From Onthophagus taurus (Eukaryota; Arthropoda; Insecta; Coleoptera; Scarabaeidae), in assembly GCF_036711975.1 (NCBI RefSeq), contig NC_091976.1:18290001-18354000 (forward strand): a stretch of 64,000 nt of DNA. The letters run 5' to 3'. How positions within the stretch are numbered: the stretch's first letter is position 1; each line of letters begins with the position of its first letter. The notes beneath the pieces are model-generated. The model did no database searches. It was not told where the DNA came from and worked only from the letters and a program-made list of their open reading frames with translations. A program made the position numbers and the translations under genes. Shown one piece after another: positions 22,342 through 57,120 of this stretch.

Positions 22342-22810
22342 TTTAAAAAGGATTACAAATAATTTAGAACCACAAAAAAATCTCAACCTCAATTTATTTT
22401 ATTTACGTCAAATTCTTTTTTGACAAGCACAACCTTCGAATAAAATTGAATAAATGAATCCTCAAACATCAAGAGATATTGAGCGGTGTCTTTGTATTCG
22501 CCTAAGAACTTAAACAATTCACCGACTGATTACAAAGTTCGAAATAAAGGACTAGTTAGGTTGTATACTTTGCAAATTGCAAACTTGAAAGTAAGGTACT
22601 TTTGAAAAAAAATTCATCTAAATAAAAAGTACAAAAGGTTCGTCGATCACACCTCGAAATAACTCATAGAGTAACGAGTTTTGAAGGAGTGGGCGAAAAG
22701 ACAATGGTCAGTTTTCTAAACGATTATGAAGAAAGATTGTTAACTTACAAATTGGTGATTGAGATTTTAAAGAATGAATTAAAGATAGTTTAAAAATAAA
22801 ATAAACTTAC

Positions 22811-36449: not shown

Positions 36450-39400
36450 ACTAGCTTCCAAAAACGGTGTAAACGCTTACAACGAGGTAATTAGATGGTT
36501 CAAAAATGGGAAAATTTTAGATGTTGGGTGTGGTGAAGGTTCGACAACGGTTGATCTTTTGTATCCCTTGATGATTGCAAATTCTTCAAACTCCAAATTA
36601 ATCCCGATGGATTTACAAGAAGGTATGATTTCTGCTGCTAACGCTAGTTGTGGTCATATGAACATCGATTTTATCCAAATGGATATAACAAACATAAACG
36701 AAAATAACAACAAATACAAGAATTATTTCGATAACGTGTTTTCGTTTATTTGTCTACATTTAGTGAGCGATTTGTAAGTATAAATGGATTTTTTTTTGTA
36801 ATTTTTGTTCCGTGATTTACTTTATTAGAATATGGATAAAGAATATACAGGGTGTCCCGTTAAGCGTACGGAGCGGCTGTATCTCAATAACGGTAAGGCC
36901 TAGAGGTTTGGGAAAAAAATCGTTATAAGTAAAGTGGGCAAGAGAAATAGCTGGAAATTATTTTGAAGTTCGTAATTCGACCGCTAGGGGGCGTAACTGC
37001 CATAGAGAAACATAAAATTCCTGCTATCTCAGAAAGTTAGACGATGAGCTATAACTTTGACAACATCAGTTAGTAGCTTGGATAATACCGCATCGCTTTT
37101 GTTTTGCAATATTTTTCATATCTGTCATAATAAGGGAGGGGGAGGCCAATGCGTTTTCAAATGTTTACATTTTAATATCTCCTAGACCATTCAACCGATT
37201 TGAATATTTTTGGTCTTGTTTGAAAGAGCATTTCATGCCCTTTTAAAAGATATTCAGAAAGACCGCTTGGTTTAAAACAAATAAGCTAGAGGGCGTTATC
37301 TGCAGTGGTTACATATTTTTGTGATTTTTGAAAAATGTTAAATGGAACGGTACTATTTACTTCACAGACCGTTAATCACCATAAAATTTGCTAAATATTA
37401 GTGAAAACCGCATCTCGATATCTCCATCCATTCTCGAATTATAAAAGAAAATGTTAAAAATTCGTATATCTTAATCGGATCAAGTTACCTTAAGAAACAA
37501 ATAAGAGAGAACAATAATTTTATTATCTAGAACCTTCTAGAACACTTTATCCAAGCTTAGAACTGCTTCAAAACTACTTTTGAGGCGTGTTGAAAAGCCA
37601 ACGGATCAATGAAACATCAACAATGATAATAAAACAAAATAAACCAAAACACTTAGAATAACTTAAATTTTTAGCAAAAATAACTCACTAATGTGCTAAA
37701 TGCCTTTCATAAACCTCGATGCATTTATTTAATCTAGTTTCGACGAAAAAAAAAACGCTGCTTAAGTCTCGGCCCTAGATACGTTTCTACTGGTATTTAG
37801 TGTTATGTCATATTTTCCCTGGTTATTGGTTTTTCTTGAAAAGTCAGGTCGTTTAGTCTACCCAATAGATAAAGGGGTGAAAGCAATGTGGGTTTTTCTC
37901 GAACCAAGAATGCATATTATGCAAGTTTACATCAGCTTGTGGACAGATGCTTCATGCATCCATAGCATTTGTGATAAAAGGTTTGGATTTGCCCAAATCA
38001 TATTTAAAAGTCAATGGTAATAGTTCAGTCTGTTATCATAATCGGTATCTGTTAAGGCCTGATGTAAAACAACGTGGTGGAGATATTATTCTCTTGAGAA
38101 CTCTTGTGGACAATTGTTTTCGAAGTTCCCAGATTATGTGGGATCACATTGCGCACCAATATGATTTACGAATTCATAGAGATGTCTGAATGGGCTACAC
38201 GTTGCCAGTTTTCCGTAATCGCTAAGTCAATCTTAAAAACACTTCTAGAGAAAAATGTCTTTCTTTGTCGTAATTGCATTGCACATTTTTGCCATGCAGT
38301 TGCATCGTATTTGAAACATTGAAAATAAATCATCATACGCTCTATCATACGCTTCTGCGTTAGTAAATGACATGTTTACAGTTACCATGGTAATGTGATT
38401 TGCTTTTCTCGATGAGGTAACTGAATCCGATTGATGGCACTCGAGTTTTTAACATTTTCTTCTATAACTCGAGAACGGGTGGCGATATCGAGATGCGGTT
38501 TTCACTAAAATTTAGCAAATTTTAAGGTGACTAAGGGTCTGTGAAGTAAATAGTATCGTTCCATTTAACTTTTCTTCAAAAATCACAAAAATATGTAATC
38601 GCTGCAGATAACGTCCTCTAGCTCATTTGTTTTAAAGCAGACGGTCTTACTGAAAATATCTTTAAAAAGAGCATAAAATGCTCTTTCAAACAACACCGAA
38701 AACATTCAAATCGGTTGAATGGTCTAGGAGATATTAAAATGTAAACATATGAAAACGCATTGGCCTCCCCATCCCTTATTATGACAGATATGAGAAATAT
38801 CGCAAAACAAAAGCGATGCGGTATTATCCAAGCTATTAAATGATGTCAAAGTTTTAGCTCATCGTCTAAGTTTCTGAGATAGCGGCAACTTTATGTTTCT
38901 CAATGGCAGTTACGCCCCCTAGCGGTCGAATTACGAACTTCAAAATTATTTCCAGCTATTTCTCTTGGTCACTTTGCTTATAAGGATTTTTTTCCCAAAC
39001 CTCTTGGCCTTACCGTTCTAGAGATACAGCCGCTCCGTACGCTTAACGGGACACCCTGTATATGATTTAATGAAACGTGATGGGCAAACTTTCTTCATAA
39101 TTCCAGCAAATAATCCAGTTTTTACTGCAGTTATGGAGCTGCGTCATGAAGGAAATTATATTGAATATGTTAAAAAAGTCGAGCACGTTTTCAACACTCC
39201 ATTTGCTCAATTAAGTAATCCTGAAGATTGGATTAAACCTTTAATGGAAAAAGAAGGATTTAAAAATGTTAAATGTTTCAAATTTCCCCAAGATTTCACT
39301 TTTGAAAGTTTCGATTATTTAAAAAGTGTTAAACAAGTTGACTAATTTCGTTATATTTTTGTAACAAATTTTATATTTTAGGGTTCATTGCAACTTTTCA

Positions 39401-39539
39401 ATTTTTAATTAAGGAAATTTTAAAAGATGAACAAGATAATTTTATCGAAGAAGTTGTTAATCGTAATATAAAAATATCAACTTTTGATGAGACCACTCAA
39501 GAAATTCATGCAATTGTAATCAAATCTAAGTTGATTTAG
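36450..39539 (+). pseudogene. M1: type A JHAMT-like methyltransferase pseudogene
   Basis: Homology to the intact type A gene M3 starts abruptly at 36450, removing the start codon and about 15 codons. Exon 1 (to 36773) keeps the SAM-binding motif ILDVGCGEGSTT. Exon 2 starts at 36829 but is cut after 36847 by a 2211-bp transposon and resumes at 39059, running to about 39327. Exon 3 (about 39382-39539) has a 35-bp deletion relative to M3 that removes the tail ending CFILAIIADK and gives a new C-terminus. The sequence is otherwise open and close to M3, so inactivation looks recent. Confidence 0.9.
36848..39058 (-). mobile_element. Long-TIR mariner-like transposon inserted in M1 exon 2
   Basis: A 2211-bp element starts CAGGGTGTCCC and ends GGGACACCCTG. 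The inverted repeats are about 617 bp each (36848-37464 and 38442-39058), imperfect. TA flanks both ends (36846-36847, 39059-39060). The undisturbed M3 paralogue has the corresponding sequence with one TA fewer, so TA was duplicated. The 977-bp centre holds a minus-strand relic: NRLNYYH, stop, LLNMIWANPNLLSQMLWMHEAS, then DVNLHNMHSWFEKNPH, matching mariner-like transposases (ILWTDEAxF ... NxHNxHxWxxENPH). The first catalytic Asp is replaced by His. Non-autonomous. Confidence 0.9.
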
Positions 39540-39679
39540 TTTTCATGTTTTATAATTATAAATAAATAGTTATTTTCGATGGTCAATAATAATTCTGTTT
39601 TAAACATCGCAATTTTAATTATATATTGTAAACAGCAAATTTTCTAATTATTTATACAATCGTTAAAATATACTAACGG

Positions 39680-39762
39680 TTATCAATATAATTATACTTA
39701 AAGTAGGAAGTTAATTAACTATAATAATTATTATTCTTTCTTAAACGTTGAAATCGCCTATA
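39680..39762 (+). promoter_or_regulatory. M2 5' region, TATA box deleted
   Basis: Aligns base by base with the M4 5' region (TTATCA GATA-like site at 39680-39685, shared TTAATTAACT, shared leader before ATG) but lacks ten bases at 39711/39712 that in M4 contain the TATAAATA box. Confidence 0.7.
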
Positions 39763-40671
39763 ATGTACGACCCCAAATTATATCGTGAAACAACAAATCT
39801 TTTTGTGAAATCCCACATCAAAAAGATCATAAATTGTTATAGTAATTTACTAAATTGGAATCAAAATGAAAATATTTTAGAAATTGGTTGTGGTGAAGGT
39901 TCAACAACAATCGAAATTTTGGTTGATTTCATCTCAAAAAATGTTTCAAATTTTAATTATTTAGCAACTGATTTATTACAACCAATGATTAATTTAGCAA
40001 CAAATGATTATTTACACGATCACGTGACGTTTAAACAAGCTGATATCTTAGATGAAAAACTCTGGTTGAATTACAAGGAATGCTTTACGAAGATATTTTC
40101 AATTTTGTGCTTTATGGTCGTACCAAACCCAACGTAAGTAAAAAAATCGATTTAACTAATTAATAACTTTAATTTTTAGTATTTGGATTAAAAATATTTA
40201 CAACGTTTTAAAACAAAACGGTCAAATATTTTTAATATTAACATCAACAAATCCCATGATGAAACAACACATCTCTCTTAGCCAACAAGAGAAATGGTCA
40301 AAATACCAAAAATCAAATTTTTTTCTCTCCGATTACCTTTTAAGCGATAACCCAACATCTTGGATTATTCAACTCTTAAGAAATGGAGGATTTAAAGATA
40401 TCCAACAACATGAAATTGTTTACGATACCAATTTAAAAGATTTTAAATCTGCATATCGTACGTTATAATTAATTTCTTAATTTAATAAAATAAATTCAAT
40501 CAAGAACAATTTTTAGAATTTGTAAAAGCTTTTACATCATTGAACGAGAACATTCCTGAAGAATTAAAAGACGAATATTTGAATGAAATGTGTGAAAATA
40601 TCGAAAAAGAAGTTTTAAATGACGAAAAGTACTCTTATATTTCTTATGATGTTATTTCAGCCAAAAAATAA
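39763..40671 (+). CDS. M2: type B JHAMT-like methyltransferase, 267 aa
   Basis: Exons 39763-40133, 40180-40457 and 40517-40671; GT-AG introns of 46 and 59 bp in phases 2 and 1. The start is the ATG in TATAATGTACGAC, conserved in M4 and M5. A SAM-dependent class I methyltransferase: motif I ILEIGCGEGSTT (38-49), acidic ribose-binding position D70 in LATDLLQPM, adenine-side D94 in FKQADILD, then FSILCFMVVPNP (112-123) where canonical JHAMTs have a CLHW-type block. The C-terminal helical region ends with ISAKK. JHAMTs methylate juvenile hormone acid or farnesoic acid in the cytosol of the corpora allata. These diverged copies lack the Trp of that block, so the substrate is uncertain. Its promoter has lost the TATA box. 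AATAAA lies at 40678-40683. Confidence 0.85.
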
Positions 40672-40744
40672 TGTTTTAATAAAACTATTTTGTCTTCTTT
40701 AATTTGACATTAATAATATAATCCATAAAAACAGTCCAATTTAT

Positions 40745-42140
40745 CTTATGGAAACTTTGATAACATTGTATGTAAGCGAATACAGATTGTATGTTGAAAA
40801 TAAGAGATGATGATATGGCGATATGCTATTGATAATCTAAATAAAACCACAGCCCTAATAGAATTTGAAGATGAATGGATAATACTAAGATACACCATGA
40901 ATTGAGCTGCTGTAGACATTATAAGTAACCACAAAAATCACGCAATAAATGCTCCAGAAAGAAAATATCTACAACAAAACGCAAGATTGAACAAAGCTGA
41001 GTATGAAGGATATCGAAGAAAGACCAACAGAACCTGCTATAGGAAGAAAACAGAAATCCTAAAACAGAAAATAAAACAAGTAATTGAACATAACAGCACG
41101 CAAAAATAAATAATACAATGAAATTCCCCTAGCTAGAACTTCTATATCTCGAATTATCCTCTAAGTCGAATAATTTTCGTAAGCTCAAGCGTTTGACTAG
41201 ATTTCAAATGTGTTTTTATCTCTTTAAGTCGAATTTCACTAACTCGAATTTCTCTATAACTTGAACTGAACTACTATGGAATTTATTCAACTCTTACTTC
41301 TATAAGTCGAATTTACCAAAGAATAAAAATTCAAATCCGTTCTGTAAGTAAATATTTTTTTATTTGGGTGATTTTATGGTTCGAACATTTGATGAAGCTT
41401 ATTCCTCTCTTAGAAAGCTTGAAACCTTTATATTATCAAGAGAGAATGTTCCAGATAATATTCATAATTCTTTACATTTAATAAAAACATTTTTTCGACA
41501 AAGAGCGGTTGTCTACTTTAAGCCAAAAGAAAATTACGGATTATTTTAAAAAACTTGATTAATTTCCTACTTATAATAGTATTAAGGTTTCTGTTTTAAA
41601 TTTTTCTCTGACTCGTATTCTCCATAACTGGAACTTTTCTTCTGCTCCCTTAGTGATTCGAGTTAGGGAAATTTCACTGTACAACGATGAGAAAGGAATA
41701 ATTTTGAATGACACGATGTCAAAGTACGCTAGATCATATCCACATTCTACGGAATATACAAGAAAAATTGAATGAACCTGTACAATACCTAGCAAAACTG
41801 GGTATACCACAGAAGATTAATCATCATTTTAGAAGCTATCATTCCCGAGCTTGAATATATGCCTACTGAGGGAAAAATATACTTATTTCAACTAGATCAT
41901 ATGTTTGGGATCCAGAGTAAACAAACCTAATAATGCCAAGGAAAAATCGAAGCCAGGATACGTACTTTATTTACAATAAGTCCACAAACACTGAATGAGG
42001 AGTAAAATATTAGGCAGACAATCGTAAATCGAGATCTAACGCCCCATTATAAGATCAAGAACAACATATGGTTACGAAGCATGGACTATGTCGCCAGGAC
42101 TAGAAAACCAAAAAAAATAATATCTTAAAATATCGAAAAT
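40745..42140 (+). mobile_element. RTE-like LINE remnant downstream of M2
   Basis: Frames such as NAPERKYLQQNARLNK and CYRKKTEILKQK match the basic endonuclease-RT linker of RTE-like LINEs; after a pogo-like insertion (41116-41679) a tail continues with a TYGYEAWTM block (about 42065). The first part and its flank are repeated downstream of M4 at 49020-49415, so gene and LINE were duplicated together. Confidence 0.6.
41116..41679 (+). mobile_element. Pogo/Tigger-like non-autonomous element
   Basis: A 564-bp element with inverted ends (CAATGAAATTCCCCTAGCT at the left; the right end reads CAGTGAAATTTCCCTAACTC in reverse) and TA on both sides (41114-41115, 41680-41681). The homologous flank of M4 lacks it. 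It encodes only a transposase C-terminus (41364-41549, RTFDEAYSSLRKLETFI), which resembles the C-terminal region of Tigger/jerky-type proteins. The DDE core is deleted. Confidence 0.75.
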
Positions 42141-45062
42141 ATCTTCGTAAAGCACTCCTTGTAATTCAACCAGAGTTTTTCATCTAAGATATCTGTTTGT
42201 TTAAATAGAACACGTTCGTCAAAATAATCATTTGTGGCTAAATTAATCATTGGTTGTAATAAATCAGTTTCTAAATAATTAAAATTTGAAACATTTTTTG
42301 AGATTAAATCAACTAAAATCTTCCTCTTTTCGACAGTTCGTGGTGACGTAAAGCACGTGTTTTGGGTTCACCTCGCACTATCAGTTTTTGAGGAACTTTG
42401 GTAGCCCTGTGTTGAGTTGTTTGATCTTTGCTGATTTTCGCTTTGCTTGGTAGTTGGTTTTTGCTTGGCTTGGTGATATTAGTAGTTGAGGGCGAGGGTG
42501 AAACCGTTTTGTTAACATGAAGGATGAACTTGACTCTATAGATTTTGATAATTGTGCTGATAAAATAAATCTTAATGATGCTCTTGAATTTGTGAGATAC
42601 ATTGAGGCAAATATAACCAATCTTCTTGACTCTAGGACATTTAATCACATGAATTTAAACGCTGCACAATGTAAATCGTCCATCGAGCGTGGATGTATCC
42701 AGATTAATGATAAAGAAAAAATAATTATTGCGGACGATATTATTAATCTTAGGAACAGAATCTTAGAAGATAAGGGATGTATATTTGATAATTTACTATT
42801 TAATGTTAATAACTGTCGTTTTTCCAATATGGATTCGTCTCCTTTCATTGTTTACATCGAATCTATAGACAAGAATATAACAGGTTTAAGTGACATGAAA
42901 ATAGGTAAATACTTCTATGATCAGACTAAAAATAGGGAAAAATAGACTAGCAATCGAATTTGATTCAAATGTCAATGCTAACAAATTTTTGTGAATAATT
43001 AGACGACCTACATACCAACACACTTGATCACTTGCAGAGCTATCATTAGAAACATTGACACATCCTTTTCCGAAGTGGACATTAAATTGCAGACAACGAG
43101 AGGGAAGTTCTTTGAGTCAGAAGATTTAGAAGGAATGTAGCCAAAGAAGTTAGTGGAGATTCAGGTTCTCAAACAGAATTTGAATACAGAGGTACTTCAA
43201 CATTATTAGTTACTTTTGCAGGGACGGTAATTCCAAGTTACATCAAACTGTTTTTTAATGTAAGAAGAACTGAATTATATACAGCACCAGTAGCGCAATG
43301 TCACAAATGTTGTCGATACGGCCATACTAAGAAAATCTGTAAATCTAAATTAAAATGTCTCGGGTGTGCAGAAGAACATGATTTTAAACAATGCACAAAA
43401 AAAGAAAGCCCTAAGTGTATTTTCTGTAGGGGTGATCATTTATCAACAGAGATGTGTATTCCTTTTTCTGAGAGAATTTGTACTGAACTTACCAAGCAAT
43501 CTACAATTAAAAAACTAATGGCAACTTACCATATTTCTGCTTTCGAAGCACTGATGGCGGTTAACAAGTCCTCGGACAAACAGTTTGCTATTAATAGACT
43601 AAATGATGATATTAATTTTCCTAGGGTATCTTCTAATAGCCAGGCTAGTAAAGCTTTAAATACAAACAGTAACAGAACGACTGCACAACCTAAGACAAAT
43701 TTTTTGGTAACTACTCCCGGTAATAATGCTAGACATATCACAAGAACCGATGACTTTCCATTTTGATCAAAAGAGGTGTACAAGCGGCATGGTTAAACGA
43801 TCCGATGGTGATCGAGGAGAGAATTCATTTTGCCAAGTTCAGGGTGGGAGGTATTACTTTTGTGGCGGGGTATATTCCCTCTGATTAAGGTTTTAGTATT
43901 TATGATTGGAACCAATTACTCTTGAATGTTACTGCACCTTTTATTATTTTGGGTGAGCTAATTGAAACATTGGATTTGACCGTGGTGAATAAAAAAAGAA
44001 CAACGTTTTTAAATAGAAATAACAAAGTTAGCGTTATAGATTTGATTGTTTGTTCGTCGGATATAGCGCAAAACGTTGTTTCAAAAACCGATACACACTT
44101 TGGGGAGTGATCATTTTCCTGTTTTAGCTAAGGTACTTACCAGTATTACTCCATTTTCTAGCAAATCCAAAACCCAGAAAACTGATAGGTTTAATTACAA
44201 GAAGGCGAACTGAATTAGTTTTTCAGAACATACTAGTAGATGGTGAGATAGTGATTAAGCAAGAATTGTGGGACTTAGAAAGATGGTAACCAGGCAGTTT
44301 ATGACGTGTCCCAGCGAGATTAATTTTATCATAGTCAAGAGGTATTTGGCTTTGAGCAAAAGACTACTACTCAAAAAGAAAAGAGAACCTTTCAAACAAT
44401 TCTGCGAATCACTATCCAGGTAGTCATCATTAGAATGTTATGGGGAACCATAAGGCACTACGACTGAGCCATTAATGGCACTGAAACCCAAATATCTACA
44501 GATTTCGCATGGACCCAGGATTTTATGTCTCATCTTTGCCCGGAGTATGTGCCTAATTTGGAAGATGTTGAAACCGGTAGAATTGAGGAGTCAGATTAAT
44601 ATGGACAAACCATTCAGCAGAACGGAATTAGAGTTAGCTTTGAAATTTAAAAAATCGATATCCCCCGGTTCAGACGACGTCAGTTTTGCCATGTTAAACA
44701 ACATTTCAGATATGTAGGTGCTTAAGGAATTTAAAGTAGTTTAAATGGATTAAGGTAGTAAGGAAGGATCATTCCCCCCTGCCGGTAATTCTTCTTATTT
44801 GAATTGTTTTTGATTTTTGGAACGTTATCTCCCCACAGGGCTACCTAATTTGAAGATAAACTTATATAAAAAAAAAATTGTGACTGGTGGTAAGGGCCCA
44901 GCTACCAAGTTATTACCCCTGGTTTCAAGAAGAAGAACTAAAATCTCGATTGTGGTTGAACCATCACTACAAACAATTTCTAAAATATTTTCATTTTGAT
45001 TCCACTTTAGTAAATTGCTTAAACAATGTATGATCTTCTTGATGTGGGATGTCACATTTTTA
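42140..45062 (-). pseudogene. Type B methyltransferase pseudogene split by a LINE
   Basis: The 5' half (45062-44936) reads HIKKIIHCLSNLLKWNQN and ENILEIVCSDGSTTIEILV, with the motif I Gly-Cys-Gly changed to Val-Cys-Ser. The 3' half (42320-42140) continues at exactly the same codon with LVDLISKNVSNFNYLETD and the FKQTDILDEKLWLN block, then homology ends. The start codon and about 17 codons are deleted, and exons 2 and 3 are absent. It lies downstream of M3 on the same strand, as M2 follows M1. Confidence 0.85.
42321..44935 (+). mobile_element. Jockey-like LINE inserted in the type B pseudogene
   Basis: 2615 bp, bounded by a perfect 10-bp target duplication AACTAAAATC (42311-42320 and 44936-44945). 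ORF1 starts at 42517 and, after a frame break, ends with three CCHC-type knuckles (CHKCCRYGHTKKIC, CLGCAEEHDFKQC, CIFCRGDHLSTEMC; about 43298-43450) and a tail to 43766. ORF2 is reduced to the end of the endonuclease (FRVGGITFVAGYIPSD, NNKVSVIDLIVCSSD) and a piece of RT fingers (FKKSISPGSDDVSFAML). Most of RT is deleted, so the copy is dead. The 3' end carries no long poly(A) but a short AAGAAGAAG run. Confidence 0.85.
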
Positions 45063-45104
45063 AGTTTAAGAAAGAATAATAATTGTTGTAGTTAATTAGC
45101 TAAT

Positions 45105-45206
45105 TTATACCTTCTATAAATGGGATGAAATTCTCCATATTTCTCTAATATAGTATTTCTCAAAAAGGTTTTACTTTTACCTACATCATATTTTATTATA
45201 CCTTCT
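45105..45206 (-). repeat. 80-bp insertion with 11-bp direct repeats in the pseudogene promoter
   Basis: TTATACCTTCT occurs at 45105-45115 and 45196-45206, flanking 80 bp (45116-45195) that M4 lacks at the same position between its AAAGTAGAAAG and TATA box. The 11-bp repeats look like a target-site duplication. I cannot name the inserted sequence. Confidence 0.6.
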
Positions 45207-45399
45207 ACTTTAAGCATAATTATCTTGATAACGGTTAGTATATTTTAACGTTTCTGTCAATAAGTAAGAAATATGTTGTTTTCAAGATGTAATTAAAATT
45301 GCGATGCTTAAAAAAGAGAATTATCATTTACTATCAAAAATAACTATTTATTTATAATTACAAAACATGAAAACTAAATTAATTTAGATTTGATTACAA

Positions 45400-46329
45400 T
45401 TATTTATCTGCAATAATAGCAAGAATAAAACAGCTTGCATGAATTTCTTGAGTGGTCTCATCAAAAGTTGATATTCTTATAATACGATTAGCAACTTGTT
45501 CGATAAAATCGTCTTGTTCATCAGTTGGAATTTCCTTAATTAAAAATTGAAAAGTTGCAATGAACCCTAAAATATAAAATTTGTTACAAAAATATAACAA
45601 AATTACTCAACTTGTTTAACACTTTTTAAATAATCGAAACTTTCAAAAGTGAAATCTTGGGGAAATTTGAAACATTTAACATTTTTAAATCCTTCTTTTT
45701 CCATTAAAGGTTTAATCCAATCTTCAGGATTACTTAATTGAGCAAATGGAGTGTTGAAAACGTGCTCGACTTTTTTAACATATTCAATATAATTTCCTTC
45801 ATGACGTAGCTCCATAACTGCAGTAAAAACTGGATTATTTGCTGGAATTATGAAGAAAGTTTGCCCATCACGTTTCATTAAATCATATATATTCTTTATC
45901 CATATTCTAATAAAGTAAATCAGGGAACAAAAATTACAAAAAAAAATCCATTTATACTTACAAATCGCTCACTAAATGTAGACAAATAAACGAAAACACG
46001 TTATCGAAATAATTCTTGTATTTGTTGTTATTTTCGTTTATGTTTGTTATATCCATTTGGATAAAATCGATGTTCATATGACCATAACTAGCGTTAGCAG
46101 CAGAAATCATATCTTCTTCTAAATCCATCGCGATTAATTCGGAGTTTGAAGAATTTGCCATTATCAACGGATACAAAAGATCAACCGTTGTCGAACCTTC
46201 ACCACACCCAACATCTAAAATTTTCCCATTTTTGGACCATCTGATAAACTCGCTGTAAGCGTTTACACCGTTTTTGGAAGCTAGTTTTTGAAACTGAGAC
46301 ATTTTCTTGTACAATTCAACGTCGAACAT
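45400..46329 (-). CDS. M3: type A JHAMT-like methyltransferase, 272 aa
   Basis: Exons 46329-45962, 45906-45623 and 45566-45400, with introns of 55 and 56 bp in phases 2 and 1 like the other copies. The second donor is a weak AGTGTT; using the later GT breaks the frame. It starts MFDVELYKKMSQFQKLASKN, keeping the Gln-Lys near residues 14-15 seen in JHAMT-type enzymes. Motif I is ILDVGCGEGSTT (36-47), the acidic loop ELIAMDLEEDM, and MDITNI follows. The block FSFICLHLVSDL retains Cys-Leu-His of the JHAMT CLHW motif but has Leu for Trp. Exon 2 encodes IWIKNIYDLMKRDGQ. This is the only complete type A copy and serves as the reference for M1. Methylation of a carboxylic acid is likely; the exact substrate is unknown. 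Confidence 0.88.
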
Positions 46330-46800
46330 CTTTGAAATTTTCGTTCTCTTTACTTCTTGGTAACTGATTGTGAGTGAGGGTGACTTTCAAATTGTGTTCG
46401 AGTTTTATTACGTTATTAAAAAGAGATGGAATAAACGAGTATTTAAAGAAAAAAATTAAACTCCCAAAATGAAATTTAATCTTAACATTTATATTTTATT
46501 CGAAGAAAGTAATAAATTGATTTTTTTATGTATAATTTTATAAAGTAATTTAATACATTATTTATTACTACAATATTTTGGATTACAATATATTGTTATA
46601 CAGGTTGATCTAGATAAGAATGTCACCAATATGTACCATTTCGAAGTCATATTTAGACGTTTCTTTGACTATTGAACAGATATTCTATTCTAGGGCCTTA
46701 TTGTGCCAAGAAAATATCACCGAATGCTGAAATCGCGTCTACCCATTACGTTTTATTAAATCATATATATTCTTTACCTATTAAATATAAGAGAAATATA
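46330..46800. other. AT-rich stretch upstream of M3
   Basis: Contains the M3 5' region. A TCAGTT initiator-like site lies on the minus strand at 46362-46367, about 36 nt before the ATG. I see no clear TATA box at the right distance and no other gene. Confidence 0.35.
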
Positions 46801-46804
46801 AGAA

Positions 46805-47560: not shown

Positions 47561-47737
47561 AAACGATCAGTACTGAATCAAACGACGGTAATGTAGAACT
47601 GTTTACAGCCAATCTACGAATTAACTCTGTAAAATCCGAAGATCCTTTAACGACAATCGATCTCAATATACATTCTGCCGAAGAGATTAAACAACCTGCA
47701 TATATTTTATTGATACCAAGATCCTTTTTTTAGAAGT

Positions 47738-47990
47738 TGCTAATCATATTATAAGAATATCAACTTTTGATGAGACCACTCAAGAAATTCATGCAAGCTG
47801 TTTTATTCTTTCTATTATTGCAGATAAATAATTGTAATAAAATCTAAGTTAATTTAGTTTTCATGTTTTGTAATTATAAATAAATAGTTCTTTTTGATAA
47901 TAAATAATAATTCTCTTTTTTAAACATCGCAATTTTAATTGCAACATACTTCCTGCTTATTTCCACAAACGATGTAATATACTAACCGTT
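47738..47990 (+). pseudogene. Relic of a type A methyltransferase last exon and 3' flank
   Basis: Nearly identical to the end of M3: RIS(T)FDETTQEIHASCFIL and ADK, followed by the same 3' flank with AATAAAT and the TTTAAACATCGCAATTTTAATT block that also follows M1 and M3. Everything upstream is missing. Its position immediately before M4 mirrors M1 before M2. Confidence 0.85.
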
Positions 47991-48019
47991 ATCAAGATAA
48001 ATATACTTAAAGTAGAAAG

Positions 48020-48027
48020 TATAAATA
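48020..48027 (+). promoter_or_regulatory. TATA box of M4
   Basis: TATAAATA 55 bases before the ATG, with a GATA-like TTATCA at 47989-47994. The same box occurs before M5 and, slightly changed, before the type B pseudogene. Confidence 0.6.
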
Positions 48028-48081
48028 AGCTAATTAACTAAAACAATTATTATTATTTTTTAAACGTTGAAATCGTCTATA

Positions 48082-48990
48082 ATGTACGACCCCAAATTAT
48101 ATCGTGAAACAAAAAGTCTTTTTGCGAAATCTCACATCGAAAAGATCATAAATTGTTATAGTACTTTACTAAATTGGAATCAAAATGAAAATATTTTAGA
48201 AGTTGGTTGTGGTGATGGTTCAATAACAATCGAAGTTTTAGTTGATTTAATATCAAAAAATGTTTCAAATTTCAATTATTTAGCAACTGATTTATTACAA
48301 CCAATGATTAATTTAGCCACAAATGATTATTTTCACGAACGTGTCCAATTTAAACAAGCTGATATCTTAGATGAAAAACTCTGGTTGAATAACAAGGAGT
48401 GCTTTATGAAAATATTTTCAATTTTGTGCCTTATGGTCGTACCAAACCCAACGTAAGTAAAAAAAATGGATTTAATAAATTAATAAATATAATTTTTAGT
48501 ATTTGGGTTAAAAATATTTACAACGTTTTAAAACAAAACGGTCAAATAGTTTTAATATTAATATCAACAAGTCCCATGATAAAACAACACATCTCTCTTA
48601 GCCAACAAGAGAAGTGGTCAAAATATCAAAAATCAAACTTTTTTCTCTCTGATTACCTTTTAAGCGATAACCCAACGTCTTGGATTAATCAACACTTAAG
48701 AAATGGAGGATTTAAAGATATCGAACAATATGAAATTGTTTACGATACAACTTTAAAAGATTTTAAATCTACATATCGTACGTTATAATTAATTTCAAAT
48801 TTAATAAAATAAATTCAATCAAGGACAATTTTTAGAATTTGTAAAAGCTTTTACATCATTGAACGAAAACATTCCTGAAGAATTAAAAGGCGAATATTTG
48901 AACGAAATGTGTGCAAATATCGAAAAAGAAGTCTTAAATGACGAGAAGTATTCTTATATTTCTTATGATGTTATTATAGCCAGAAAATAA
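48082..48990 (+). CDS. M4: type B JHAMT-like methyltransferase, 267 aa
   Basis: Exons 48082-48452, 48500-48777 and 48836-48990, with introns of 47 and 58 bp. Exon lengths (371, 278, 155) equal those of M2 and M5. Motif I is ILEVGCGDGSIT, so the Glu and first Thr of M2 are replaced. D70 and the ADILD block are conserved. FSILCLMVVPNP is followed by IWVKNIYNVLKQNGQIVLIL. The frame is open and splice sites are consistent, so the gene looks functional. Downstream it shares an RTE-like LINE remnant with M2, showing descent from one duplicated segment. TATA box present. Confidence 0.87.
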
Positions 48991-49019
48991 TGATTTAATA
49001 AAACTATTTTGTTTTCTTT

Positions 49020-49880
49020 TATTTAACACTAATAACTTACACTTTGATAACATTGTATGTAGCCGAATACAGATTGTATGTTGAAAATATGGGATGATGA
49101 TATGGCGATATGCTATTGATAATCTAAATAAAATCACAGCCCTCCTAGAATTTGAAGATGAATGGATAATACTAAGATACACCATGAATTCAACTGCTGT
49201 AGACATTATAGATTACCACAAAAATTACGCAATAAATGCTCCAGAAAGAAAATACCTACAACAAAACGCAAGATTGAACAGAACTGAGTATAAAGGATAT
49301 CGAAGAGGGACCAACAGAACCTGCTATAGAAAGAAAACAGAAAGCCTAAAATAGAAAATGGAACAAGTAATTGAACATAACAGCACGCAAAAATAAATAA
49401 TACAGCAATATACAATTATGAAAAAGGAATAATTTTGAATGACCCTGTATAGCGTTTACATCTATTAAACGCCTTAATAGGTCTATTATAAAATAAATAG
49501 AAAAAAGGTACAGTACAGTACTAGCTAGGTACTTTGCTAGGTACTACAGTACCTAGCAAAAGAAGCTACCATACCCAAGCATGAAATGCGAAATGTCATC
49601 AAAACGAAAATCTTGCTGCTATAGGAAAGGATGCAGAGAAACAGAGGAGTAAAGATAATTGCGAAATGGACACTACAGGGATAGAGAACTAGAGGAAGAC
49701 TAAACAAACGATGGAAGGATGATGTGATGGTGGTTAGAATGTTTAGTGTATAGGAATGACAACTTATTGCGAAGCAAGCCCAAATCCACAAAGGACCGTA
49801 GTGCTGGAAGAAGAAGAGTCTAAGTAAAATATGGCTCATAGCTGGCTTTTCAAAAACCTTGTGCCTTCCGTAAATCAAAT
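49020..49880 (+). mobile_element. RTE-like LINE remnant downstream of M4
   Basis: The first part (to 49415) is the duplicate of 40745-41113. The later part has GRLNKRWKDDVMVV and the IHKGP region, the degraded RGRPxxRWxDDV and C-terminal tail of RTE-like LINEs. A palindromic run around TACTTTGCTAGGTACTACAG lies at 49522-49560. Confidence 0.6.
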
Positions 49881-49934
49881 GCCATAGATTTGAACATATA
49901 TCTACACTTAGAAATAGAACGTTTTATTTTTCCT

Positions 49935-50080
49935 GTGCTGCTTTGCAAAACGCTCAGGTGTTTCAACTTATTTTAGATAACGCACCTGCACACACATCAA
50001 ATGACAAATTAGCTTCAAGAGACGGTCTATTACAAACTTTCTTGCTTCCTTATTTTACACCTCTACTTGACGGCCTGAGA
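49935..50080 (+). mobile_element. Pogo/Tigger transposase fragment
   Basis: QVFQLILDNAPAHTSNDKL, then LLQTFLLPYFTPLL, matches the second catalytic Asp region of Tigger/jerky-type transposases (LILDNAPAH ... FLPPNVTxLIQP). It is interrupted at about 50078 by the 3' end of the minus-strand LINE. Confidence 0.7.
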
Positions 50081-52790
50081 CGGCCTCTGGCGACGCAATT
50101 GCACAGTATATGTTCAGCAGTTTCTGACTCGTCGTTGCAAAGTCGACAAGTTTAATCCTCAGCTTGTCCAATGTGGAAGAGGTGGTATTTTAGGAGCGCA
50201 TAGAAGGTCAGGTATCCTGAGAGCGTCCTTAGATCCCCTTTGCTGAGGTATATAACCTCCTTGGTTTTGTTTTGTGATGAAGTTATCATAGTTATCATAG
50301 AAGTTCTTTCCAGCGTAAGGCTACCTTTGAAACCTCCCAATTGTTGATTATTTGTTTTAGGTGGCTGTTTTGTAGTCCACAGCCAGGTTGGGGTCCAATA
50401 AAGGGCGTGTTCGCTGCTTCTTTGGCCAGTTAGTCCGCCTTCTCATTGCCCTCAATGTTGCTGTAACTTGGAACCCACCATAGGGTAACATCATTGCCCC
50501 AAGCGAGGTCTCTCAGGTTGCTGGTACACTCTCTGATTAGTGCGGAGTCACAGGTGTAGGCCTGAATTGCCTTTAAGGCGGCCCGACTGTCTGTGAAAAT
50601 GTTTATGGATGCACCCTTCTGTCCCTTCTGTAGGTTCAAAGCGGTGCAGAAGTTTATAGCAAGAACTTTCGCTTACGAAAAATTGTTATGTCCGAACTGA
50701 GTGGTAGTTTGATATGGCTGTTTGGTCCACTGATGCCCATACCTACTCCGGATCTAATTGCCTTTGAAGCATCGGTGTAACAGGCTAGGGCTCCTCTTTT
50801 TAGTTGAGGCCCCCCTTCCCCCAATCATCACTTCTTCTAAATATGACCTTATACGGCTGGTTGAAATTGTATTCTGTCGGTATAAGGTCCGTTTTAATTT
50901 CAATCAGGTGATTTAGACATAGGTCCTTGAACATTTCGAGGTGTCCGCTGAGATTGCCATGCATCAACTTGAGTGAAGAAACTATTTTCAGTGATAAGGC
51001 ACTTGAAGTTACCTCCTTTTGTATATATAAATGGAGCGAGTAGGGCGTCCAAAGCAGTCGTCGGACAAGATCTCATTGCACCCGTTATGTTAAGTTATAC
51101 TAACCGCTGGATTTGTGCCAGCTGTTGTTGTGCTGTCTTATGTTTTGTTTTGGCCACCAAAAAAATGAGGCGTGGGACCATGGGTTTGATTATTGCTACG
51201 TAGGCCCAATGAGCCATTCGTGGTTTGAGACCGCAGTTCCTTCCTAGGAGCCTGCGGCAGATCTGGTTTGCCATGATGGCCTTTTTCTTCACCTTATCTA
51301 AGTGTGAGTTCCAGGCTAGTTTACTGTCTAATATTACCCCTAGGTATTTAACTTTTATTTTGAGGTTGATAGTTCTGCTTTCAATGGAGGCTGCTTTTAT
51401 TTGTAGGTTCGTTCTCCGAGTGAAAGGGACTATTTCGATTTTATTTGGACTGATGTGGAGCCCATTGCTTCGACACCAAGTACTGGTGAGGAGTAGGGCT
51501 TTCTGCATTAGTTGAGTTACGATTGTATCATATTTACCTCGGATTATGATTACCTTCATCAGCATAACACTGAATCTTGAATTCGTTTTTTGTTAGAGTG
51601 TTCATCAAGTCATCAACTACCAGGCACCATAATAGAGGTGATAGCACTTTACCCCCTATAGGGACATCCTCTTAGCGCCTTTATAGCCAGCGACTCGCCA
51701 CCCAGACTGGCTGTGATCTGCCGACTTTTCAACATGGCTATACACCATTTGATTGTCGACGGATGTATATCTTTTACGTTTAGGGCCCTCTCTATGGATC
51801 CATAGGAGGTGTTATCAAACGCACCCTCTATGTCTGTGAAAGCACATAAGGCTATCTCTTTGGTTGCTATTGCCTCCTCTAAAATCCACCCTAGCATGTT
51901 GGCTAGGATGGAGTGGATTAGTGACAAGCACTCCATTCCTAAGGTATACCTTAGCTATTACCTTTTCCATTCCTTTAAGGAGAAATGAAGTTATTCTAAT
52001 TGGTCTGTATGCCTTGGGATTGGCGTTTAAACGCCTACCACCTTTAGATATGAAGACCACCTTTACTTTCTTCCATAGTGTGGGTATATAGCTAAGGTTA
52101 TAGCTAGCAATATATAGGGGTATTATTACTATGAGCAGGTCTTCTAAGCCTTTTTGCAGAAAAATAGGCAGAATTCAATCTCCTCTAGGCAATTTTAGGG
52201 ACTTGAAATTAGAAATAACCCACCTCGCTCTGTTGGGTGTAAAAATGTTGCCAGCTATGCTGCGAACTCTACCTGATGGATGGGTTATGTCGATTACATC
52301 ATGGTCGGCATCTGCGTGGGGGCAGACTTTTGAGGAAGGGAAGTGTGTACTCAGTAGGAGCTCCAACGATTCCTTAGCATCCTCAGTGTATTTACCGTCT
52401 TGTTTGCATAGGTGGCCTAGATCAGTGTTGTGATCTTTTGCCAAGATCTTATGCAGACGAGCAACTGTAGGCGTATTGTATGCCTTCACAGAAACTGCAC
52501 CAGGTTTTTCTTTTGGCTTAAGGATAGCCAAGTTATATTCTGTTAGGGCTTTCTTATAGACTTCCCGTGTTTGCTCGAGTTCGGAATGCCTGACTTTGTT
52601 ATATAGTCTTCTAACCATAACTCGCTGTTTTTCAAGGTCCTTATTCCACCAAGGTACATTGAATTGTGCTCTTTTGAGTTTTATTGGATAGCTTGATTCA
52701 TATGCACTATGTATGAGATTGTTTAGTTGAAATGCCGTATTGTTCACAAATATGTATTGTTTATAACTATTCTTTATATATGTTTTTATA
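50078..52790 (-). mobile_element. LOA/R1-like LINE with RNase H, 5'-truncated
   Basis: On the minus strand: linker WWNKDLEKQRVMVRRLYNK; RT fingers FISKGGRRLNANPKAYRPI; FTDIEGAFDNTSYGSIERAL; active site CYADEGN (YADD changed, with a frameshift right after); NKIEIVPFTRR and KYLGVILDSKLAWNSHLD; RNase H with INIFTDSRAALKAI and VTLWWVPSYSNIEGNEKAD; C-terminal block CRLCNDESETAEHILC near 50100. The RNase H domain points to the LOA/I/R1-like group. It begins within the linker, so the endonuclease is missing. A few frameshifts and stops are present; it is young but dead. Confidence 0.85.
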
Positions 52791-52958
52791 TTGTTTTTAA
52801 TTTTCTTTGTGCTAATATATTTTGTTTGTTATTTTGTATAGTAAATTTTTTGGCATCAAACCCAGTAATCCGTTATATTCTGTAATCCGGCAGTGCTAAA
52901 AATTTTATGATGCCAGATTATCGAGATTGTACTAATTATACCTGCTTAAAATAAAAGG

Positions 52959-52966
52959 TATAAATA
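52959..52966 (+). promoter_or_regulatory. TATA box of M5
   Basis: TATAAATA 56 bases before the ATG. The leader after it matches M4 closely (TAAACGTTGAAATCGTCTAT). Confidence 0.6.
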
Positions 52967-53021
52967 CGCTAAAATAACGACAACAATTATTATTTTTTCT
53001 TAAACGTTGAAATCGTCTATA

Positions 53022-53930
53022 ATGTACGACCCGAAATTATATCGTGAAGCATGTGGGTATTTTCTAAGACCCCACACCAAAAAGATCATAAATTATTATA
53101 GTAATTTGCTAAATTGGAATCAAAATGAAAATATTTTAGAAATTGGTTGTGGTGATGGTTCAACAACAATTGAAGTTTTAGTTGATTTGATCTCAAAAAA
53201 TGTTTCAAATTTTAATTATTTAGCAACTGATTTGTTACAACCAATGATTAATTTAGCCAAAAATGATTATTTTCACGAACGTGTCCAATTTAAGCAAGCA
53301 GATATCTTAGATGAAGAACTCTGGTTGAATTACAAGGAGTGCTTTACGAAGATATTTTCAATTTTGTGCTTTATGGTCGTACCAAACCCAACGTAAGTAC
53401 AAAAATTGATTTAATTAATTAATAAATTTAATTTTTAGTATTTGGGTTAAAAATATTTACAACGTTTTAAAACAAAATGGTCAAATATTTTTAATATTAA
53501 CATCAACAAATCCCATGATGAAACAACACCTCTCTCTTAGCCAACAAGAGAAATGGTCAAAATACCAAAAATCAAATCTTTTTCTCTCCGATTACTTTTT
53601 AAGCGATAACCCAACATCTTGGATTACTCAACACTTAAAAAATGGAGGATTTAAAGATATCCAACAATATGAAATTGTTTACGATACTAATTTAAAAGAT
53701 TTTAAATCTGCAATGCGTACGTTATAACTAATTTCTTAATTTAATAATATAAATTCAATCAAGAACAATTTTTAGAATTTGTAAAAGCTTTTACATCATT
53801 GAACGAGAACATTCCTGAAGAATTAAAAGACGAATATTTGAATGAAATGTGTGAAAATATCGAAAAAGAAGTTTTAAATGACGAAAAGTATTCGTATATT
53901 TCTTATGATTTTATTACAGCCAGAAAATAA
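53022..53930 (+). CDS. M5: type B JHAMT-like methyltransferase, 267 aa
   Basis: Exons 53022-53392, 53439-53716 and 53776-53930, with introns of 46 and 59 bp. Differs from M2 and M4 mainly near the N-terminus (EACGYFLRPHTKKIINYY) and just before the second junction (SAMQ instead of SAYQ). Motif I ILEIGCGDGSTT, D70, FKQADILDEELW and FSILCFMVVPNP are intact, and the frame is open to TAA. Unlike M2 and M4 it has no type A partner upstream; instead a LOA/R1-like LINE fills the upstream interval. The substrate is unknown, as for the other type B copies. Confidence 0.87.
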
Positions 53931-53982
53931 TGTTTTAAAAAAACTATTTTGTCTATAAAAGCACTACTTTAGCTTATGGAAA

Positions 53983-54052
53983 CTTGAATGACGAAAGCTA
54001 CTCTCATATTTCTTATGTTGTTATTATAACAAGAAAATAATGTTTTAATAAA
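53983..54052 (+). pseudogene. Relic of a type B last exon
   Basis: LNDESYSHISYVVIITRK followed by TAA and an AATAAA is a diverged second copy of the type B gene end (compare LNDEKYSYISYDVISAKK in M2), lying right after M5. It records a further B gene lost between M5 and M6. Confidence 0.75.
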
Positions 54053-54177
54053 GAATTATTTTAACGTTAATTTGTTGAAGTATTATCTAAAATACTTAAC
54101 ATATGATACCCTTATCGTTTTGATAAAAATTGTCGTCAATTTAAAAATAAAATTGTGTCTCCATTCGCTGTTAAAAA

Positions 54178-57120
54178 ATGTTTGATGCTACTTTATATCA
54201 AGAAGTTACCGAAAGTTTCATTAAAACCCATACAAAATTTATTGTAAATAGCTTTAAAAATGTATTGGAATGGAAATCCGAAGGAAAAGAAGAAATTTTA
54301 GATGTTGGTTGCGGAGAAGGGTCAACCACAATACACATTTTAGAAAAAATGGTTATGGAGAACACGAAAAATTATAATATTTTAGGAATTGATTTGATGG
54401 ACGCAATGATTGATTTGGCAAAAAAATCCTTTCCAAATCGAGAAAATATTCAATTCAAACAAGCCGATATTTTAGATGTAAACGCCTGGGTTGGGTATAA
54501 AGAACATTTCCATAAAGTTTTATCGATTTTGTGTTTTATGATCGTACCAAATCCCAAGTAAGCTTTTTATAACTTAATTTATATTAATATTACTTATAAT
54601 TTTTTTTTAGAGTTTGGATTAAAAATATTTATAACGTTTTAAAACCAAATGGTCAAATATTTTTTATGCTATGCTTAACTAACGCGATGGTAAAACAACA
54701 ACTTTATCTAAGTAAACAAAAAAAATGGGAAACATATCAAAAAAAGAACGCTATGTGCTCCGAGTTCTTCATAAATGAAAACTCAACAGATTGGATTATT
54801 CGCCATTTAGAGGAGGGAGGATTTAAACATCTTATTTATAACGAAATCGTATTTGATACACCATTAAAAAATAAGGAAGCTTCTTATAGTAGGTTTAAAA
54901 AATCATTTACTCACCTGGCAAATTTTCTGTTAATAATTTCTGAGGTTTTCTTTCGCAAGCAAAGCATTTTAGTACATTTAACATTTCTTAACACACCATC
55001 ATGATCTTATCTTCATCTTCAGAACAAGTTCCTTCTACTACTGGGTCTCATTAGCAGCTTAAAAGCAAATAATAGAAGCTAGCAAATTCCAAACATATAG
55101 AAATCAAAACAAATTAGAAGTATTTTGATGACTTTGTTAGTAACATTTCTGCTTCCATGACCAGATTTTGGTTGATTTTAAAATCATTTTAGATTAATCA
55201 CAGATGTTCTACTACGCCAATAAATTTTACTACCCATCATTACAAACAACATATTATATTATTATTAGTTAACATTACTGCATGATGCATTTCGTATTGG
55301 ATTCTCTCTGTAGTTTCATGAAACAACTGGAGTTGTGTTGGTTTTCAATACTTGAGACTTGATGGATAGAGATTTTGTCAAATTATATCTTTGATGGAAT
55401 GTTCAATAATCGTTATGCAGTATAATTAACAGTTTTCATTCCAGCACTTGTGATCATCACTTTTGTGATAGTTCAATCATCTTTATCAGGATGACCTCTC
55501 TTCTATGCTTTATTTTACTATCTATGGTCTTTCCCAACAGTTCAAGCAGACTGATTTTTGTACCTTACATCAACTCAGATAACTATATCCAAAACGTATA
55601 TCTCTAGTTTGCTTCTTGGAACATTCGCATTTAGAAAAGTGTATTGAAAGCCTTGCAATTATAAACACCATCAAGGTAGTCTTTGAACTAAAATTAGAAC
55701 TAAAACTAGAACTAACACTTTCGGGTTTTGCCGTGCGTCTTTTAAGAAAAGGTTTGACATTTCGGATGCCATGTTGCAATCTTCTTCAGAAACTGGTTCG
55801 AAGTGACTTCATTACATACTATTATTATACTAACTTCTATTTTCAAGTTTTCTCTTGAATACTCTCCATTTTTTTCAATCAGAAACATTACTCATCTGCC
55901 AATAAGTTACAAACGTTAATACCTTTGACGATTTTCGAACTGACCTAATTTGTCTTCGATTTAAAAGGCTCTTGAGGAGTTTAGTTTCAACAAGTTTTCC
56001 AAAGGGCATTAATACAACCACAGCATTTGTTATAGTTACAAATGACTTTGTGTGTACGCGCTACTTCTTCACTATCTTTTGGATATGCAATCAAATCTAC
56101 GCCCGAAATGTACAGGGAAGTGTCTTAATTCTGCTAAACATTTCACTTTTTGTGGGTAGTATAATCAATAGCATCTCTTGCAACTATAACTTTTACATAA
56201 ATTGGGTTCAAATATATACCACATCTATATATAATTGTAGATAGCTTTCCGGTTGCTGTAATGCACCTACATAGTAGCCTTTCTGAGTTCTGGATTAGTT
56301 CTGATGTGAGATTGATCCGAAACTTACGTTATTGATGTTTCTATTACTATCAAGAACATTTGCGTGGTCTTCAGGAATCTTTAAACTCAATTCGGTAAAG
56401 ATTATTACTTTTGAATTTCTCACACCAGTCAAACTGATTCTGATTTCTCAGGGATTTTGCATATTAAAGACTTTAGATATTGAATTACAACCAATTTGTA
56501 CTACTGCTGTATATAGCAAGCAATTAAGGAATTTTGAAGCCAACCCATTTAATCCTCCATAATAAACGGATATTCAACCAAACGGCAAAGCAACACAATC
56601 CATTTAAACATCAGCAGTTATTGGATATCCCAATGAAACCCCAAATCAAGCTAATCCAGTAAAGCTTCAGCATTTAATGATATTCCAACCCAACCCCAAA
56701 GCAGTTGTTAAAACATATCTCAACTCACAATCAGTCCTAAAGCAACCCAACCCATTTGCACATTAGCAGAAGATTTATATCCCAACTCAACCACAAAGCA
56801 GCGCAAATCTGCAAATCTCTGTAGTTAATTGTTCAGGTTCCTCATTTTCTGAAGATAGAAAGTATTTAAATAAACAAATGGTGAATTGTTTACAATTTTT
56901 ATTACTGTCTCTATGATTCAAACAGTTGTAGTGGTAATACATAAGTTATTTTCTTTGTATTTCAGAGTTCACCAAAGCATTCACTTTATTAAATGAAACA
57001 ATTCCTGAAGAACTAAAAGAAGAATATTTAAATGAATTGTGCGAAAATATCGAAAAGGAATATTCGAAAAACAAGGAATACTCAAAAATTTCTTATTTAA
57101 TTATATCCGGAAGGAAATAA
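54178..57120 (+). CDS. M6: type C JHAMT-like methyltransferase, 270 aa
   Basis: Exons 54178-54557, 54611-54888 and 56966-57120. Intron 1 is 53 bp; intron 2 is 2077 bp, with donor GTAGGT and acceptor TTTCAG. Exons 2 and 3 have exactly the lengths of the type B genes and the phases (2, 1) agree. It starts MFDATLYQEVTESF. Motif I is ILDVGCGEGSTT (43-54), then NILGIDLMDAM, FKQADILDVNAW and FSILCFMIVPNP. Exon 2 encodes VWIKNIYNVLKPNGQIFF, and exon 3 FTKAFTLLNETIPEELKEEY through SGRK. It is the most diverged member, intact as read. Any transcript must remove the long intron, which is filled with repeats. Function as for the others: SAM-dependent carboxyl methylation is likely, substrate unknown. 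Confidence 0.87.
55640..55800 (-). repeat. Penelope-associated repeat, copy D, in M6 intron 2
   Basis: Contains a TAGAAC-rich run and, on the minus strand, CTGAAGA followed by a small stem and CCGAAA, as in the copies at 31.0, 32.1 and 36.0 kb. Related repeats are usually dispersed near Penelope-like elements. Confidence 0.5.
56565..56830. repeat. Degenerate minisatellite in M6 intron 2
   Basis: Four to five decayed units of about 55-60 bases, each built around GATATYCCAACC...AAAGCA...CAATCCATTT. Divergence between units is high. Confidence 0.5.

Follow-up and report, generated by a model that had tools for sequence, protein, structure and literature searches.

A cluster of methyltransferase genes related to the insect juvenile hormone acid methyltransferases (JHAMTs) occupies 21 kb of a 64,000-bp stretch of the genome of the beetle Onthophagus taurus (290.8 Mb in 33 contigs); this stretch, referred to below as the window, is C11:18290001-18354000 of assembly GCF_036711975.1 (G000), where C11 stands for contig NC_091976.1. 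Two gene types, A and B, make up the array, and a comparison of their sequences makes it fairly probable that a single explanation covers it: duplication of a two-gene cassette, decay of some copies, gene conversion between others, and a remodelled acceptor site serving substrates other than juvenile hormone (JH). An ancestral adjoining pair of A and B genes, about 220-250 bp apart, would have been copied together, yielding three cassettes of which one is inverted, and B genes would also have multiplied without A, giving M5, a relic and the older M6. Mobile elements and truncation would then have killed M1, the B gene of cassette II and the A gene of cassette III; gene conversion would have exchanged sequence between M1 and M3, the A genes lying in opposite orientation. 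The surviving enzymes would keep their S-adenosylmethionine (SAM)-binding core with a remodelled acceptor site. JH would be left to a separate canonical-type JHAMT gene, JH1, on the same contig, and the array would methylate other small lipophilic molecules to ethers or esters, type A possibly still acting on a carboxylic acid and type B more likely on a neutral or phenolic acceptor. The array records in 21 kb cassette duplication, inversion, probable conversion and decay through transposons.

The two-gene cassette and its decayed copies

The genes, relics and junctions of the array are the following (window coordinates):

36450..39539 (+), M1, type A pseudogene of cassette I: exon 1 remnant 36450-36773; exon 2 36829-36847 and 39059-39325; exon 3 39382-39539
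36848..39058, transposon of 2,211 bp inside M1 exon 2, with terminal inverted repeats of about 650 bp and a TA target duplication
39541..39762 (+), A/B junction of cassette I: A 3' flank, TTTAAACATCGCAATTTTAATT, GATA-containing block and B upstream region
39763..40671 (+), M2, type B, intact, 267 aa, cassette I: 39763-40133, 40180-40457, 40517-40671
42129..45121 (-), type B pseudogene of cassette II, split by an insert: 45121-44936 and 42323-42129
45400..46329 (-), M3, type A, intact, 272 aa, cassette II: 46329-45962, 45906-45623, 45566-45400
46742..46778 (-), extra scrap of type A exon 2, upstream of M3
47717..47831 (+), type A relic of cassette III, end of exon 3 only
47862..48081 (+), A/B junction of cassette III, from motif matches and the pairwise junction alignment
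48082..48990 (+), M4, type B, intact, 267 aa, cassette III: 48082-48452, 48500-48777, 48836-48990
53022..53930 (+), M5, type B, intact, 267 aa: 53022-53392, 53439-53716, 53776-53930
53983..54062 (+), type B relic, exon 3 end and 3' flank, 81-84% identical to M2, M4 and M5 by self-BLAST
54178..57120 (+), M6, older type B paralogue, intact, 270 aa: 54178-54557, 54611-54888, 56966-57120

M2, M3, M4, M5 and M6 are open from ATG to stop with GT-AG splicing; the introns of M2, which has a stop-free frame, measure 46 and 59 bp, and intron 2 of M6 measures 2,077 bp. In each cassette type A is followed by type B, head to tail on the same strand with about 220-250 bp between them; cassettes I and III lie on the plus strand and cassette II is inverted. 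Self-BLAST alignments run across the A/B boundary, 39059-39725 matching 45889-45185 (88.7%) and 39432-41117 matching 47717-49404 (87.1%). Within the intergenic DNA, TTTAAACATCGCAATTTTAATT occurs at 39599, 45291 (minus strand, one mismatch) and 47919, with 0.03 matches expected by chance in the window search, and the GATA-containing block at 39672, 45203 (minus strand) and 47981, with a chance expectation of 0; for both motifs, with up to three mismatches allowed, the three junctions are the only places in the window. The junctions are identical at 158/185 (I-II), 150/166 (II-III) and 180/208 (I-III) positions, i.e., 85-90%, and their pairwise alignments score 218-223 against maxima of 38-43 among 200 single-base shuffles each. 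A 383-bp query running between A exon 3 and the start of B retrieved from the whole 290.8-Mb genome the three junctions and two short pieces, at M5 and at the B pseudogene, and no further A/B junction outside the array. Since the intergenic DNA is common to the three junctions, the sequences support duplication of a two-gene unit, rather than of single genes, for cassettes I-III.

The original prediction, made from the letters of the window, had described an A-B pair occurring three times, partly inverted, with its inter-gene sequence shared, and the alignments across the boundaries, the two motifs and the junction alignments agree with it; the inter-gene synteny that it proposed as a test is present at all three junctions. 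It had also placed M3 with a split B pseudogene on the minus strand and extended the array by M5, the relic at 53983-54062 and M6, which were all found. Two of its statements need narrowing and one fails: the cassette interpretation holds for cassettes I-III but not for M5, the B relic and M6, which have no adjoining A; the A relic beside M4 exists but consists of no more than the final ~115 bp of exon 3 (88% identical to M3 residues 238-272); and of the six coding sequences five are intact (M2-M6), M1 being a pseudogene. No type A gene precedes M5, and homology there starts only about 75 bp upstream. M5, the B relic and M6, lacking an adjoining A, are also what could be cited for independent single-gene duplications that became neighbours by chance, an idea hardly tenable given that cassettes I-III, with intergenic DNA 85-90% identical at three junctions, already contradict it. 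Hardly more tenable is an assembly artefact of uncollapsed haplotypes, for which the high identity of M1 and M3 in exons 1-2 might speak, as orientation, lesions, inserts and flanks vary from copy to copy, and the B copies are 7-13% different over aligned stretches.

M1 is a pseudogene with three lesions. Its first 15 codons are gone, with an in-frame TAA just upstream of the remaining frame; exon 2 carries the 2,211-bp element at a TA, for which M3 represents the empty site; and 35 bp that M3 and the cassette III relic retain are deleted from exon 3. The inverted arms of the element are 90.6% alike by self-BLAST, and its near-full copies in the genome are 94-99% identical (best 40 of 862 candidates scored), so the insertion in M1 is probably recent. 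The element is a high-copy one, its inverted arms within one copy mostly differ by about 9%, and it has probably been recently active. The B pseudogene of cassette II has lost its start codon region, being truncated within exon 1, and contains an insert of about 2.6 kb flanked by an 11-bp duplication (AGATTTTAGTT); two open frames in this insert matched no Pfam family. The type A scrap at 46742-46778 aligns with 3 mismatches in 37 positions, a result reached in 0 of 100 shuffles. Just upstream of M5, open frames at 51098-52747 (-) resemble the remnant of a non-long-terminal-repeat reverse transcriptase; of three frames there, one hits Pfam RVT_1 at E 0.0096, which does not reach the curated cut-off, and two have no match.

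The original prediction had missed the near-identity of M1 and M3 in exons 1-2 of type A, as opposed to 79-94% beyond them. With the transposon left out, cassettes I and II are 96% identical over 36503-36702 and 98-100% over 36703-39415; after 39415, successive windows over exon 3, the A/B junction and the B remnant give 90, 91, 79, 49, 89, 94 and 86.8%, the 49% window spanning an insertion in cassette II. The stretch delimited in this way is:

36703..39415 (+), putative conversion tract, shared with M3 45533-46032, 98-100% identical in five 100-column windows

Differences number 4/500 in the tract and 69/591 downstream (Fisher p 5.5e-15), a count based on six downstream windows of 79-94% and omitting the 49% window and the windows before 36703. 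The synonymous divergence (dS) of M1-M3 is 0.043, with the exon 3 piece included, versus 0.157 for M2-M4. As introns 1 and 2 lie inside the near-identical windows, selection on the protein does not explain the step, and gene conversion between the inverted copies M1 and M3 is suggested as its simplest reading.

Relatives of the array and acceptor-site residues

That the array genes encode JHAMT-like methyltransferases, as first proposed, is confirmed by their best solved relatives in a PDB search, which are JHAMTs for both M3 (E 1.4e-34) and M2 (E 1e-21), by Pfam Methyltransf_25/31/11 domains above cut-off in M2, M3 and M6, and by the tree, in which all five intact copies are placed with the JHAMT-like family. 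Exon-level matches in the genome amounted to 48 with M2, 42 with M3 and 34 with the JHAMT structure 9un4 as query. From these, 15 spliced models were built outside the array, chosen partly by a profile score that favours the family pattern; together with M2-M6 they make 20 tabulated models. The outside models are:

C11:30.05 Mb (C11:30048500-30053000), JH1, canonical-type JHAMT
C11:17.47 Mb (C11:17467000-17486999), N1, N2, N4 and N5, JHAMT-like cluster N
C11:0.8 Mb, K1, JHAMT-like model
Contig C7:16.06-16.10 Mb, models C1-C4 and C7, JHAMT-like array
Contig C7:24.60-24.62 Mb, models D1-D4, JHAMT-like array

Model C3 begins at an internal Met, its N-terminus not being comparable, and a 16th copy with open exons (C6) was not tabulated; other broken or partial copies were set aside. 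Both arrays of contig C7 also hold several partial copies. Intron 1 (phase 2) is common to all 15 outside models and intron 2 (phase 1) is present in 11 of them, being absent from N1, N2, N4 and N5; the phases 2 and 1 of the array genes are those of the outside models that keep both introns. No gene of type A or B was found in the genome outside the array, the matches listed being at most 39% identical and belonging to other clusters.

In two trees, which hold only genes of this one genome and five or four solved chains, JH1 (1.3e-79 against 9un4) groups with the solved JHAMTs with support of 97/92 when 8zsa is included and 98/94 in the second tree, and A, B and cluster N form one group (96/95 and 91/92). 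The original prediction had named a tree placing M1/M3 and M2/M4/M5 as unrelated imports as its test; such an origin is not supported, A, B and N being found together in both trees. Types A and B are 31-33% identical and are evidently not recent sisters. A grouping of A and B that excludes N is neither shown nor rejected (approximately unbiased test, p-AU 0.196); a B+N clade has support of 93/85 with 8zsa and C3 in the tree, falling to 77/72 without both, and is therefore not claimed. The 8zsa chain (219 residues, N-terminus missing) forms a long branch of 1.45 beside JH1 (80/73), away from A and B.

The carboxylate ligands of CfJHAMT are Tyr7, Gln14, His115 and Trp116; according to the available part of the source, substituting Gln14 leaves no activity on JH acid III, and residual activity is 9% for Y7F, 56% for H115N and 36% for H115Q (PMC13223930). 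In the same text no Trp116 mutant is given (W116, 0 occurrences). In the alignment of the 20 models all four ligands are present in JH1 alone. Gln14 is found in two models, JH1 and M3, and is missing from M2, M4, M5 and M6; Trp116 is found in four (JH1, N1, N2 and N5) and is missing from 11 of the 15 outside the array; His115 is found in 14. At positions 7/14/115/116 type A (M3) has Y, Q, H, L, only Trp116 being lost, M2, M4 and M5 have Y, V/A/L, M, V, and M6 has Y, I, M, I. Tyr7 is accordingly kept in all five intact copies, and Met in place of His115 occurs only in type B (N4 has Asn and N2 Gln). Judged by the residues of true JHAMTs, M2, M4, M5 and M6 fail at Gln14, and both A and B fail at the pair His115 and Trp116. 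The loss of the Trp of the CLHW block from all copies, also part of the original prediction, is seen in the five intact genes and in M1 (CLHLV); the other relics end short of this block. The equivalents of Gly42, Gly44 and Asp68, i.e., the Gly-rich SAM motif I and the acidic residue at the end of beta2, are present in 5/5 intact copies.

As for the other clusters, three of the four full models of cluster N keep the Trp of CLHW and all four lack Gln14. In the nine models of the contig C7 arrays, position 7 is Phe in seven (D4 has Tyr; C3 is not comparable), and positions 115-116 have His without Trp in all nine.

Insect JHAMTs of solved structure (CfJHAMT 9xyq/9xys, 9un4, BmJHAMT2 7ebs) and JH1 resemble the array genes in class I SAM methyltransferase sequence, length and SAM motif and are tree neighbours of the A/B/N group; they differ in the ligands, type A lacking Trp116 and type B lacking Gln14, His115 and Trp116. 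The inactive paralogue BmJHAMT3 (7v2s) is like B in being JHAMT-like with no Gln at position 14 and unlike it in keeping His-Trp (FHWVP). The 8zsa chain is 4VPMT2, which we take to be the locust 4-vinylphenol O-methyltransferase making 4-vinylanisole, its substrate thus being a phenol. It resembles type A in its JHAMT-like sequence and in having His115 with Leu for Trp116 (LMLHLVP), but is only distantly related, and its Tyr7/Gln14 region lies outside the alignments obtained; no paper on it was found among the matches listed in the open-licence literature.

Lineage-specific expansion of JHAMT-like genes is already known. The parts of PMC10015273 available give 31 such genes in Schistocerca, 12 in Musca, 11 in Manduca and 3 in Tribolium, with expansions frequent in arthropods and many copies without known function, and a set of JHAMT paralogues without Gln14 is already in print (PMC13223930, in part). 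The arrays in PMC10015273 are like the present one in their local, species-specific multiplication and in the tendency of paralogues on the same contig to branch together; the present array differs in that its unit is a two-gene cassette with one copy inverted. The same parts of that paper describe neither a cassette nor conversion, and the word pseudogene has 0 occurrences in its main text. No report of an A-B methyltransferase cassette was found among the matches listed in the open-licence literature.

Selection and candidate substrates

In the three pairs of M2, M4 and M5, synonymous changes account for 21/55, 18/55 and 24/66 of the changes against 18.5% expected (p 0.0005, 0.0076 and 0.0005), and dN/dS (nonsynonymous to synonymous divergence) is 0.34-0.44; this excess indicates that these B copies have been kept as proteins. 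The most variable stretch of type B is the N-terminal substrate helix: nine of the 46 variable residues of M2, M4 and M5 fall within residues 8-20 (scan p 0.003). The nucleotide sequence of this stretch differs more than expected in M2-M5 (p 4e-8) and M4-M5 (p 6e-9), residues 8-20 having been picked as the densest window, for which the scan test corrects and the pairwise tests do not. The matching stretch of CfJHAMT carries Leu13, Gln14 and Lys15 (PMC13223930, in part).

With JH1 available in the genome and key ligands missing from the array, JH synthesis by the array appears unlikely. The suggestion of the original prediction that the array acts on a carboxylic acid other than that of JH therefore divides: its first half, 'not juvenile hormone', is well supported by the residues, and another carboxylic acid seems plausible for type A and doubtful for type B. 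The step from the lost Trp to a new carboxylic acid is weak, as 11 of the 15 outside models lack this Trp and 4VPMT2 has Leu; for B it is weaker because Gln14, essential in CfJHAMT, and His115 are lost as well. In B, three ligands have given way to hydrophobic residues, which speaks for an acceptor that is not a carboxylate, possibly a phenol or alcohol, or for a protein without catalytic function.

That the array as a whole methylates a different carboxylic acid, fatty or terpenoid, is less probable than the history proposed at the outset; the family includes carboxyl methyltransferases and A keeps Tyr7, Gln14 and His115, but B has only one of the four carboxylate ligands of CfJHAMT, Gln14, His115 and Trp116 being gone. 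Slightly less probable is that A and B proteins are non-catalytic and bind small lipophilic acids or SAM. BmJHAMT3, which like B lacks Gln14, is inactive and thought to be a juvenoid-acid binding protein (PMC13223930, in part), and the pocket of B has many changes, including Asp40 to Glu in M2, M4 and M5; the equivalents of Gly42, Gly44 and Asp68, kept in 5/5 copies, need not be kept by acid-binding proteins. Further JH acid methyltransferases providing extra JH capacity are very improbable: family membership and Tyr7 in all five copies would fit, but B is without Gln14, both types are without Trp116, and JH1 has all four ligands elsewhere.

A more specific version of the preferred history can be put forward tentatively. 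Type B would be JHAMT-derived, with the carboxylate clamp mostly gone, a non-carboxylate acceptor and an N-terminal helix diversifying copy by copy, and type A would keep most of the clamp; A and B together would be one unit of two steps or two products that was duplicated several times and whose inverted copies convert each other.

A number of points weigh against the history of cassette duplication, conversion and remodelling. The boundary of the putative conversion tract was picked after viewing the identity profile, and the M1-M3 step would be explained equally well by the A part having been duplicated a second time. The M3 intron 2 donor is weak (GTGTTA), making alternative splicing of M3 possible. 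Synonymous changes between M1 and M3 are 6/24 (p 0.29), with no excess; this is expected if M1 is dead, and the evidence of selection then comes from type B. Age and selection rest on paralogues only, and the dN/dS method ignores transition bias. The nucleotide excess within residues 8-20 is not significant in M2-M4 (p 0.18), and M5 supplies most of the N-terminal hot spot, which might instead be a patch converted from a copy not seen. Aligning the N-terminus of B requires a one-residue gap, position 14 being V/A/L/I, or F by plain count, and never Q. H115N of CfJHAMT retains 56% of activity, so that a missing His115 is by itself hardly informative. In M2, M4, M5 and several outside models the SAM motif has Glu in place of Asp40, so the SAM site of these three copies is not wholly unchanged. 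Finally, the residue of JH1 that aligns with the epoxide anchor Tyr237 is Ile, and the role of JH1 in JH synthesis is therefore presumed as well.

One genome thus contains a canonical-type JHAMT beside paralogues with graded ligand loss, one of the four in A and three in B, which makes the methylation target of the copies a matter for direct assay on a defined gene set.

Other features of the window and genome

About 1.5 kb of (TTGGG)n at a contig end, C7:40831300-40836205, is a probable telomere; this repeat is described, in the parts of the sources available, from some beetles (PMC8233369) and a lacewing (PMC12564400). A COX1 match with 11 TGA codons at C1:21446788-21448128, in a contig of chromosome size, is probably a mitochondrial insertion. 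In the window, positions 1-2510 contain direct repeats (1-320/1144-1460, 96.9%, and 318-1122/1686-2510, 93.4%, by self-BLAST), and a 569-aa open frame at 22785-24491 (-) with a DUF229 domain (Pfam E 7e-63) is probably a neighbouring gene.

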